A stretch of 34,361 nt of DNA from Asaia bogorensis. Lineage in GTDB: Bacteria > Pseudomonadota > Alphaproteobacteria > Rhodospirillales > CAMCUA01. Where the stretch lies: contig CAMCUA010000005.1 in NCBI GenBank assembly GCA_945878455.1, positions 1 through 34,361 on the forward strand, written 5' to 3'. The stretch's first letter is position 1. Each line of letters begins with the position of its first letter. The position numbers and the translations under genes were made by a program. Positions 28,029 to 34,264 of this stretch are shown piece by piece. Below the pieces are notes generated by a model, which was not told the origin of the DNA, did no database searches, and was given only the letters and a program-made list of their open reading frames with translations.

Positions 28029-28069
28029 GTCGGACCCGCCCGGTCCGTCCGGGCCGCCGAGTGATGAAG

Positions 28070-28113
28070 ACGCCCTCGTCGGCGGCCTGCGGTGGCCCGG
28101 CGGGGGCGTTTTC
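28070..28113 (+). terminator. Putative rho-independent terminator after petABC
   Basis: ACGCCC (28070-28075) pairs with GGGCGT (28104-28109), followed by TTTTCGTT; imperfect stem. Confidence 0.5.
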
Positions 28114-28151
28114 GTTCCGCCGCGCTGTCGCGCGTCGGGTGGAGAAGTCGG

Positions 28152-29291
28152 ATGATCATGGTCCAGGCCGCCAAAGTTCCGCGCGCCGGGGTTATCCTGC
28201 GCGATGCAACCCTCGCCGACGTCCCAGCGTTATTGGGTTTGGAAGAACGCTGCTTTGCGATCGACCGCCTGTCACGGCGCAGCTTTCAGCACCTGGTCGC
28301 GCACGGAAATGCCATCTGCCAGCTGGTTGAGCGCCAAGATGATATTCTCGGCTACGTGCTGGTGCTGTTCCGACAGGGCTTACCGATGGCCCGTATGTAT
28401 TCCCTGGCCGTCGATCCCGATGCGCAGGGGCAGGGGCTCGGGCGCATGCTCCTGGAAGCCGGAGAGGCGGCGGCCCGGGCACGTAACTGCGTTACCATGC
28501 GGCTTGAAGCGCATCTTCATAACGATGCCGCCATCGGCCTTTATGCGGCGGCAGGGTATCGGGAGTTCGGCATCTATCCGGACTATTACGAGGATCACGC
28601 CGATGCCAAACGGTTCGAGAAGCGGCTGATTACCGGTCCGGGTCCCGACCAGACGCGGGTTCCTTATTATGCGCAGACCCTGGAATTCACCTGCGGGGCG
28701 GCGGCGCTGATGATGGCGATGGGGGCGCTCGACCGGAATCTTCGTCTCGACCGCCGGTTGGAGTTGCGCCTGTGGCGCGAATCGACCACGGTCTACATGA
28801 CCAAGGGCCACGGCGGCTCCGGACCGCATGGCTTGGCCTTGGCCGCTTATCGGCGGGGCTTCGATGTTCGGGTTCATGTCAGCGACGAGACGGATTTGTT
28901 CATCGATTCCGTGCGCAGCGCGCATAAGAAAGAAGTCATCCGTCTGGTCGAAGAAGATTTCCTCGCCGAGATCGCCGAGACCGATATGGTGGTGCAGCGC
29001 GGAAGGTTGGGCATCGACGATCTCGCCGCCTCTTTCGCCCGGGGTGCCGTGCCGGTGGTGATGGTCAGTTCCTATCGCTTCGATCGCAAGAAAATGCCGC
29101 ACTGGGTGACGCTGGCCGACATCGATGACCAGTTTGTCTATGTGCACGATCCCTTCGTCGACGTGAAAGAACAGCAAAGTGCCACCGACTGTATGAGCAT
29201 GCCGATACCGCGTGCTGAATTCGCCCGGATGGTCCGTTATGGCCGGGCTCAGCTCCAGGCCAGCATCGTGCTGGGCCCGGGCCGGCACTGA
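28152..29291 (+). CDS. GNAT N-acetyltransferase fused to peptidase C39-like domain
   Basis: GNAT half: MARMYSLAVDPDAQGQGLGRMLLEAGEAAARARNCVTMRLEAHLHNDAAIGLYAAAGYREFG; C39-like half: PYYAQTLEFTCGAAALMMAM and HWVTLADIDDQFVYVHDPF (Cys and His/Asp catalytic-type motifs). Confidence 0.9.
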   Translation: MIMVQAAKVPRAGVILRDATLADVPALLGLEERCFAIDRLSRRSFQHLVAHGNAICQLVERQDDILGYVLVLFRQGLPMARMYSLAVDPDAQGQGLGRMLLEAGEAAARARNCVTMRLEAHLHNDAAIGLYAAAGYREFGIYPDYYEDHADAKRFEKRLITGPGPDQTRVPYYAQTLEFTCGAAALMMAMGALDRNLRLDRRLELRLWRESTTVYMTKGHGGSGPHGLALAAYRRGFDVRVHVSDETDLFIDSVRSAHKKEVIRLVEEDFLAEIAETDMVVQRGRLGIDDLAASFARGAVPVVMVSSYRFDRKKMPHWVTLADIDDQFVYVHDPFVDVKEQQSATDCMSMPIPRAEFARMVRYGRAQLQASIVLGPGRH

Positions 29292-29307
29292 GCGGCCGGC
29301 CCCCGCC

Positions 29308-30804
29308 GTGCTGGTCGTCATTGTCGATCGTTGGACCAAGCAACGGCTGCTCGAAGCAGGATTTGCCGATCTGAACGTGCGCGTTGTGACCGCCAGGGAA
29401 TACGTTGGCTTTCCCCGGGCCTTTGGGCGTCGCGGCACGCGGATCATCAATCTCAGTCGCCGTTACGCCTATATGGACTACGGCTACTACTGCTCGCTGC
29501 TGGCAGAAGCCCGCGGCCATCGGGTGATACCCACCGTGACCGGCATTCTCACCTTGGGCAGTCGCGCCTTGTCTCGCCTTGCCCTGCCGGAACTGGACGC
29601 CGCTCTGCGGCGGCGCATCTCGCGCCTGTCCGAACCGCCGGAACCGATGTTCGACCTGTTCGTCGCCTTCGGACAGACGGACGATTCCCGGTTTCAGAAG
29701 TTGGCCCGTCATGCCTTTGACCGATTCCGCTGCCCCTTGTTGCTGCTGCGGATCGAAAATCGCGAAGACGGCTGGTGCGTGCGCTCCGTCCGGGCGCTGG
29801 CCAGCCGCGATCTCAACGAAGACCGCTTCGCCCTGTTCCAGCTGGCGCTCGAGCGCCACCTGCGCGTCGGCTTCGGCCGGCAGGCTGCACGCAGCGCGCC
29901 GCGTTACAGCATCGCCATGCTGCACAATCCGCGTGAAGCCTTTCCGCCGTCATCGCCGCGCGCCTTGCGCCGCTTCATTCGGGCCGGCATGTCGCTGGGT
30001 ATGGAAGTGGAGCTGATCGAACCGAAAGATCTGTTGCAGATCGCTGAATACGACGCCCTGTTCATCCGCGAAACCACTTCCATCGACGATCACACCTATC
30101 GGGTGGCGCGCCGGGCCGAATACGAAGGCATGGTAGTTCTCGACGATCCGGATTCGATCGTGCGCTGTACCAACAAGGTCTTCCTGGCCGAACTGCTGGC
30201 CGCCAACGGCGTACCTTCGCCGCGCACCGTGGTATTGGAGCCCGACCGCCTGGCCGCCGCGGAATCGGAATTAGGCTATCCGATGGTCTTGAAGGTGCCC
30301 GACGGATCGTTTTCGCGCGGCATCCACAAAGTTCAGAATCGTGAGGAACTGCGCCAGCGTGCCAGCGAACTGTTCAAGCGGTCGGATGTGATTCTGGCGC
30401 AGCAGTATGTCTATACCGACTACGATTGGCGGGTCGGCATCCTCAACGGCCGGCCGTTGTTCGTCTGCCAGTACTTCATGTCGCGCCATCACTGGCAGAT
30501 CATTCGTCACGGGGCCAGCGGACCGGCCCTCGGGCGCGCCCGCACCTTCTCGGTCGAAGAAGCGCCGAAGGCTGTGGTCGAAACGGCGTTGCGCGCCGCC
30601 CGCCTCATCGGCGACGGATTGTACGGCGTCGACCTCAAGGAGACTGCCGACGGAGTCGTCGTCATGGAGGTCAACGACAATCCGAATATCGACGCTGGCA
30701 TCGAGGATCAGGTGATGGGCGATGCCCTGTATCTGGCGATCATGGAAGAATTCGCCCGGCGGCTCGATCATCGCCGCCGCTCCCCCGGCTCGCCGCCGCT
30801 CTGA
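29308..30804 (+). CDS. RimK-family ATP-grasp ligase with RimK-like N-terminal domain
   Basis: C-terminal ATP-grasp: YPMVLKVPDGSFSRGIHKV; DWRVGILNGRPLFVCQYFM; GVDLKETADGVVVMEVNDNPNIDAGIEDQ; long N-terminal VVIVDRWTKQRLLEAGFADLNVRVVTAREY...; GTG start. Confidence 0.9.
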   Translation: MLVVIVDRWTKQRLLEAGFADLNVRVVTAREYVGFPRAFGRRGTRIINLSRRYAYMDYGYYCSLLAEARGHRVIPTVTGILTLGSRALSRLALPELDAALRRRISRLSEPPEPMFDLFVAFGQTDDSRFQKLARHAFDRFRCPLLLLRIENREDGWCVRSVRALASRDLNEDRFALFQLALERHLRVGFGRQAARSAPRYSIAMLHNPREAFPPSSPRALRRFIRAGMSLGMEVELIEPKDLLQIAEYDALFIRETTSIDDHTYRVARRAEYEGMVVLDDPDSIVRCTNKVFLAELLAANGVPSPRTVVLEPDRLAAAESELGYPMVLKVPDGSFSRGIHKVQNREELRQRASELFKRSDVILAQQYVYTDYDWRVGILNGRPLFVCQYFMSRHHWQIIRHGASGPALGRARTFSVEEAPKAVVETALRAARLIGDGLYGVDLKETADGVVVMEVNDNPNIDAGIEDQVMGDALYLAIMEEFARRLDHRRRSPGSPPL

Positions 30805-33446: not shown

Positions 33447-34116
33447 TCAGCCGACGTTCTTGCGGAAGAAGTCGAGCGTGCGTTCCATCGCCTGCTTGGC
33501 GCTGGTCGGATGGAAGCTGCCGCGCTGGTCGCAATGAAAACCGTGGCCGGCGTCCTTATAGATGAACAGCGGCAGGTTGGGGTGCTTGGCGCGGACTGCC
33601 TCGACCTTCTCCAGCGGGATGCTGGCGTCCTTCTCGCCGAAGTGCAGCATGGTGGGGCAGGTCGGCTTCTCGTCCTTGAAGTCGTGGAGCTGTCCGCCGT
33701 AGTAGCACGAGGCGGCAGCAGGCTTTATCCGGCAGGCCGCCAGCCAGGAAAGCGATCCGCCCCAGCAGTAGCCGACGACGCCGACCTTGCCGGCACCCTT
33801 CACGGCGTCCATGGCGGCGGCAACGTCCTTCAATGCGTCATCCCAGGCGATTTTGCCGCGAATATCGAGGCCGGCGGCGATATCAGTCTGCTCGTAGCCC
33901 AATTCGATGCCCTTCTTGACCCGGTCGAACAAGGGCCGGCGCGATGGCCAGATAGCCTTGCGCGGCGAAACTGTCGGTCACGGCGCGTATGTGGCTGTTG
34001 GCACCGAAGATTTCCTGGATGACAACGATCCCGCCGCGCGGCTTGCCCGTCGGTTCGGCCTTGTAGGCGTCGAATGCATGTCCGTCGGCGGCCTTCAAAG
34101 TGATGGTCTTGCCCAT
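33447..34116 (-). pseudogene. Dienelactone hydrolase family protein, frameshifted
   Basis: N-terminal part in one frame (MGKTITLKAADGHAFDAYKAEPTGKPRGGIVVIQEIFGANSHIRAVTDSFAAQGYLAIAPAL) continues in another (FDRVKKGIELGYEQTDIAAG...VGYCWGGSLSWLA...DAGHGF); apparent +1 base near 33931. Confidence 0.88.
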
Positions 34117-34264
34117 GACGTATTCCTCCCTGAGTGATGGCGGCTGGATTTAAGCAGGGAGAAAGCCGGGCGGGCAAGGCCGCTGCCGGCACATTCAGAC
34201 GTTGAAGCGGAAAAGACGCTAAATTCTCATTCCAAGTGCAACACCGTTATGCTTCGGAGTTGCG

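Follow-up and report, generated by a model that had tools for sequence, protein, structure and literature searches.

Two adjacent genes of Asaia bogorensis, one encoding an acetyltransferase fused to a peptidase and the other an amide ligase, raise the question of what three such activities could make, or modify, together. The genes occupy positions 28152-29291 (+) and 29308-30804 (+) of the stretch of 34,361 nucleotides analysed here, hereafter the window. Working from the letters alone, the original prediction had read them as a GNAT-C39 peptidase fusion and a RimK-type ATP-grasp ligase, had proposed that together they synthesise, cap and trim a peptide or amino-acid conjugate, and had named domain searches, a tabulation of gene neighbourhoods and modelling of both structures as checks. 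Our literature searches on DUF3335, RLAN, DUF2817 and the pair itself found no functional study, product or phenotype.

The locus and its two enzymes

The GNAT-C39 gene begins at ATG 28152, with a ribosome-binding-like site (GGAGAAG) lying 5' of it. The longest open reading frame of the ligase begins at 29212 and overlaps the GNAT-C39 gene; however, the start is most likely GTG 29308, 16 bases past the stop of the preceding gene, since both the conserved sequence and the intergenic layout favour it. Upstream of the pair lie petABC of cytochrome bc1, and between them, 3' of petC, a hairpin ending in a T run (28060..28118, + strand; fold z -2.9, with 1 of 200 shuffles as stable) is a probable intrinsic terminator. 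Given the strength of this terminator-like hairpin, an operon shared with the bc1 genes is disfavoured and the pair is probably transcribed on its own; hence its neighbours in the A. bogorensis genome say little about function. Downstream are a response regulator gene on the other strand and MTAP/mtnA. A dienelactone hydrolase gene of the window (33447-34149, - strand) is split over two frames near 33900, its N-terminal half lying in 33883-34149 and its C-terminal half in 33447-33977, by a frameshift in either the gene or the assembly.

The domain searches show that the two adjacent same-strand genes are what they had been taken for. The first (28152..29291, + strand) encodes a protein of 379 aa with a RimI/ARD1-type GNAT domain at residues ~14-159 (Acetyltransf_1, 3e-16) and a DUF3335 papain-like (C39-like) peptidase domain at residues ~170-374 (DUF3335/Peptidase_C39-like, PF11814, 4e-86; 288 bits against a cut-off of 25). 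The Cys and His/Asp-type motifs reported in it are retained across relatives: the predicted nucleophile Cys181 in FTCG (codon 28692..28694), the predicted catalytic partner His317 in PHW (29100-29102) and Gln175, a probable oxyanion residue (28674-28676; all on the + strand), are conserved in 107/107 relatives, and the second predicted catalytic partner, Asp333 (29148-29150, + strand), is D or E in all 107. For the peptidase part, no solved structure resembling its sequence was found. In the acetyltransferase part, E119, the glutamate that occupies the place of the RimI base, is present in 132/132 GNAT partners, with or without C39, and Tyr145-Tyr146 (28584..28589, + strand), which align with the NYY of RimI, would by homology form the loop typical of RimI/ARD1-type N-alpha-acetyltransferases (Y146 in 131/132 and Y145 in 124/132 of the same partners). 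An AlphaFold2 model (m4fc35231c771, pLDDT 88.7) places the GNAT domain closest to RimI (5isv and 2cnm; TM-score to target 0.86-0.88), with ARD1 matched too. The domain thus combines this fold with the catalytic Glu and the Tyr-Tyr loop, and it is nearest to alpha-amine N-acetyltransferases in both sequence and structure.

The second gene (29308..30804, + strand) encodes a protein of 498 aa, in which an extra N-terminal RLAN domain (7e-40; PF14401, 136.5 bits against 25) precedes a RimK-like ATP-grasp domain (7.5e-8). Its ATP-grasp motifs had been described as intact, and D373, R375, D442, E454 and N456 are indeed invariant in 135/135 relatives, as is a family-specific acceptor-side motif, H395-W396-Q397 (HWQ). 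In the AlphaFold2 model (m711d6a47ba63, pLDDT 86.2) the ATP-grasp part resembles D-Ala-D-Ala ligases (Ddl), RimK, LysX and ArgX, all of which are carboxylate-amine ligases, and the nearest PDB sequence relative is of the LysX/ArgX type (3vpd). Since catalytic residues are kept in the peptidase, the GNAT and the ligase across relatives, all three activities are likely to be live.

Neither protein belongs to the characterised families nearest to it. The GNAT scores 66.6 bits against 86.4 for RimI, the S18 acetyltransferase (TIGR01575), and 21 against 569 for Ngg (TIGR03103); the ligase scores 93.7 against 143.4 for RimK, the RpsF glutamate ligase (TIGR00768), and 32.9 against 331 for the E. coli-type RimK (NF007764). 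Scores below these cut-offs leave the window proteins outside the RimI, RimK and Ngg families, but they are no argument against a similar way of working. A relative of the ligase is carried by a P. aeruginosa plasmid (NZ_CP133752.1, 38438-39868), where it is annotated as a RimK family alpha-L-glutamate ligase.

Conserved pairing and an optional peptidase

The pair is a real, widespread and conserved unit. Among 150 genomes of the order, DUF3335 was found in 41 and RLAN in 46, and the two genes lie within 5 kb of each other in all 41 DUF3335 genomes (28 in the same direction, 13 convergent); among 299 genomes of the phylum, with DUF3335 in 47 and RLAN in 56, this holds for 44/47, including 13 divergent pairs and 3 in reverse order. 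This is far more than chance would give: Fisher tests on the genome counts, without correction for phylogeny, yield p about 1e-31 for the order sample and 4e-43 for the phylum sample. Moreover, same-direction, reverse-order, convergent and divergent arrangements occur in different lineages, which favours functional linkage over inherited synteny. Among the sampled Pseudomonadota, roughly one genome in five (phylum) or one in three (order) thus carries the ligase, nearly always with an adjoining GNAT. The original prediction had staked itself on conserved co-occurrence of the two genes, on catalytic residues that survive alignment and on a ligase distinct from the canonical RpsF glutamylase; given the pairing, the intact sites and the RimK scores, it stands on each of these points.

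The two synthetic domains can also be joined in a single chain, as in one genome (G046) that encodes a 667-aa GNAT-RLAN-ATP-grasp protein; open frames of similar length are present in the 13 sampled genomes of the same genus. A further candidate, a four-domain GNAT-C39-RLAN-ATP-grasp fusion (G104; a 1012-aa ORF at L233 5096-8134), was set aside, because the junction contains an ambiguous base, read as X in the linker, that may hide a stop.

RLAN occurs without DUF3335 in 10 genomes of the phylum sample and 5 of the order sample. In 12 of these 15 the inspected loci have a GNAT of the same family, lacking the peptidase domain, next to the ligase, and the remaining three give the same GNAT-only picture in phylum loci (L117, L120 and L146). 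On a tree of 118 ligases (the window and 117 non-redundant loci), C39 is present in 84 loci and the window, 28 loci have the GNAT alone, and the other 5 lack a GNAT within 3.5 kb; one of these five lies at a contig edge and another has its GNAT-C39 gene on a different contig, so that the ligases with usable context but truly without a GNAT number three (L049, L099 and L104). The C39 state changes 15 times on the tree, and 14 of the changes are forced by well-supported branches. Hence, the constant core is GNAT plus ligase, to which the C39 peptidase has been added, or from which it has been lost, on at least 14 occasions. Of the proposed system of ligation, acetylation and peptidase activities, the conserved ligase/acetyltransferase unit therefore remains, whereas the peptidase, missing from 28/117 non-redundant loci and changing state so often, is an accessory of the synthetic pair and not an essential partner. 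For experimenters this means that the GNAT and the ligase are the two enzymes to reconstitute first.

Some members depart from this layout. One of the three ligases without a GNAT neighbour (L099 1892-6434) is flanked by genes for an ArgE-type deacetylase and a gamma-glutamyltranspeptidase. Two DUF3335 peptidases without a GNAT or a near ligase (L211 4136-5194 and 13189-14394) lie among solute-binding and oligopeptide-transport genes, and another (L212 5671-6303) has 2-oxoglutarate dehydrogenase and histidine kinase genes nearby.

Neighbouring hydrolases and the proposed product

In the window no hydrolase besides C39 adjoins the pair, and the genome holds no Ngg (TIGR03103), AsnO (TIGR03104) or M42 peptidase (TIGR03106) over cut-off; a DUF2817 gene is present on another contig of this genome (C8:5741-6757, L213). 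Elsewhere, 14/56 RLAN genomes of the phylum sample, 13 of them belonging to a single family, have a DUF2817 gene no more than 5 kb from the ligase, and five additional loci have one at other positions; one DUF2817 member weakly matches the catalytic profile of succinylglutamate desuccinylase/aspartoacylase. M20 deacetylases of the ArgE (acetylornithine-deacetylase) type adjoin the pair in L056, L068, L074, L099 and L150, and also in L199, from an alphaproteobacterium of the window's own order. Two other kinds of neighbour recur: three distant lineages have a gene for a calcium/sodium antiporter no more than about 1.2 kb from the ligase (L201 7592-8545, L215 5090-6070 and L220 7832-8800), and threonine dehydratase genes are found near the pair in Pseudomonas loci (e.g., L065, L076 and L095) and in the f56 family (L158, L163, L174 and L215).

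Only two genomes among hundreds place the pair, or its GNAT-C39 gene, beside genes for the osmolyte NAGGN, whose system comprises AsnO, Ngg and an M42 peptidase and is encoded by PA3459-PA3461 in P. aeruginosa (PMC8070244). In one, from the window's order (G131), GNAT-C39, ligase and M42 peptidase genes follow one another on one strand, 2 and 45 bp apart, and the M42 peptidase passes the NAGGN-family cut-off (TIGR03106; 494.6 vs 397.75). No Ngg or AsnO over cut-off was found in this genome, which is ~90% complete in ~390 contigs, so that the absence of ngg and asnO is uncertain. In the other (G155), a complete asnO-ngg-M42 locus is followed on the same strand by GNAT-C39 and DUF2817 genes. Among 30 genomes checked, Ngg was over cut-off in 23 and AsnO in 23, mostly adjoining the M42 gene. 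A simple genome-wide link between NAGGN M42 and RLAN was rejected: co-occurrence reaches significance among the genomes of the order (uncorrected p 3e-5) but fails to do so among those of the phylum (p 0.31). Orphan NAGGN-type M42 genes in the g29 genomes (G046, G072 and G127) were not counted as support; the one in G046 has oligopeptide-transport, pyrimidine-degradation-type and M20 genes as neighbours. An AsnB-like gene behind the GNAT-ligase genes of one genome (G206, L203/L272), at 371 against the TIGR03104 cut-off of 570 and in a single locus, counts as no more than a weak hint. The broader "peptide or amino-acid conjugate" foreseen for the window can be narrowed, since the gene context of G131 and G155 suggests acetylated dipeptides similar to NAGGN.

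Given these observations, we tentatively propose, at somewhat less than even chances, that the products of the two genes work together as one system to make a small N-acetylated peptide, in the simplest case an N-acetyl dipeptide. With the same reserve, the pair would be best explained as an analogue of the NAGGN synthetase Ngg that is not orthologous to it and is split over separate genes. This explanation draws on the observed domains, intact active sites, pairing, GNAT-ligase fusion, dispensable C39 and hydrolase neighbours. We infer the step order, substrates, product and physiological role, the individual steps being taken from family chemistry: with acetyl-CoA as donor, the RimI-like GNAT would acetylate an amino acid or short peptide at its alpha-amine, and the RLAN ligase would use ATP to activate a carboxylate as an acyl phosphate and then couple it to an amino acid through the latter's amine. 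Where present, the papain-like domain may hydrolyse or trim the amide product, for turnover or proofreading, a part that in other lineages could be taken by AspA/AstE-like DUF2817, ArgE-type M20 or NAGGN-type M42 enzymes. 

Several points count against such a product: the window's genome lacks NAGGN genes over cut-off, adjacency to NAGGN-type genes is confined to two genomes, and, judged by fold, protein termini would suit a RimI-like GNAT and a RimK-like ligase just as well. RimI acetylates S18, and RimK adds amino acids to the C-terminus of S6. The main alternative, which we regard as rather unlikely, is that the GNAT acetylates a protein N-terminus, the ligase extends a protein C-terminus and the peptidase removes the tag. 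The affinity of the GNAT to RimI/ARD1 and of the ligase to RimK/LysX would suit it, as would the lack of a RimK over cut-off in the window's genome and the finding that a protease, RimB, counteracts RimK in Pseudomonas (PMC12239564). However, both window proteins fall below the RimI and RimK cut-offs, the acceptor-side HWQ invariant in 135/135 ligases is specific to this family, no RimB-type retropepsin is among the annotated neighbours, and the hydrolases that do neighbour the pair (ArgE, DUF2817, NAGGN M42) are small-molecule deacylase types.

The ArgE-type neighbours in those six loci, together with LysX/ArgX among the solved structures nearest to the ligase, could instead indicate an alpha-amine-protected intermediate of arginine/lysine-type metabolism, N-acetylated or carrier-linked, as with LysX/ArgX and LysW, and freed by ArgE-like deacylases. 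Yet such neighbours are few, and their position may be no more than the ordinary placement of arginine genes; we find this reading improbable. Still further down we place a RiPP- or antibiotic-type system, in which the ligase and peptidase would act on a ribosomal precursor peptide or the GNAT would detoxify a compound. Graspetide clusters use ATP-grasp ligases (PMC8939145), and C39 peptidase domains elsewhere cut off leader peptides (PMC10318531). Against this, RLAN is broadly distributed (46/150 and 56/299 genomes), the window has no room for a short ORF next to the pair, and across diverse loci no conserved ORF of 20-90 aa adjoins it, beyond those of near relatives and antisense shadows; hence, no conserved short ORF there could serve as a peptide precursor, and such a precursor was rejected.

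Returning to an acetylated peptide, a further-reaching proposition, which we consider unlikely as it stands, is that the RimI-like GNAT and the RLAN ligase give bacteria a second, non-orthologous way of making acetylated dipeptide solutes; one of the synthetic enzymes would bring a hydrolase domain of its own, and a single system would thereby both make and recycle the compound. The enzyme classes involved, GNAT, RimK-like ligase, and AspA-like and M20/M28-like hydrolases, also match those of mammalian N-acetylaspartylglutamate metabolism. An acetylated peptide solute would be a common but unseen metabolite; if the pair tags proteins instead, it would represent a new terminal modification.

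Comparison with known systems

One close parallel is the NAGGN system, in which Ngg of P. aeruginosa, working with AsnO, acetylates one glutamine and joins a second to it (PMC8070244). Like the pair, Ngg brings together a GNAT and an ATP-grasp domain, in one chain as in the genus with the GNAT-ligase fusion, and it makes an N-acetyl dipeptide, the kind of product proposed for the pair; besides, a NAGGN-family M42 peptidase adjoins the pair in G131, and the full trio adjoins GNAT-C39 in G155. They differ in that the ligase described here is RLAN/RimK-like, whereas the ATP-grasp part of Ngg is cyanophycin-synthetase-like, and in that the window system carries a C39 domain while its genome has no AsnO over cut-off.

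The combination of RimK and RimB, like the Rlo system of P. aeruginosa (both described in PMC12239564), shares with the pair a RimK-type ATP-grasp ligase genetically linked to an opposing peptidase. However, that peptidase is aspartic and the one described here of the cysteine type, and the window pair has an extra RLAN domain, an acceptor-side motif of its own, a GNAT partner and RimK scores below cut-off. With RimI/ARD1 the window GNAT shares the GNAT fold, the position of the glutamate base and the Tyr-Tyr loop, but it is fused to C39, paired with a ligase and below the RimI cut-off. LysX/ArgX provide the nearest ATP-grasp sequence in the PDB (3vpd) and have an acceptor-side H-W motif in common with the ligase; unlike it, they lack the RLAN domain and work with the LysW carrier.

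Iyer et al. (2009), a study cited in PMC10318531 and PMC4431377, predicted neighbourhoods of amidoligase genes that are also close to the locus. As described in PMC10318531, they include the same fusion of a GNAT to a DUF3335 papain-like peptidase as in the window, with a possible role in peptide ligation or acetylation, and the idea is thus not new. Leaving aside priority with respect to Iyer et al. (2009), the present analysis adds that the C39 peptidase is optional, that GNAT and ligase occur fused in one chain, and that the pair is linked to NAGGN, DUF2817 and ArgE-type genes.
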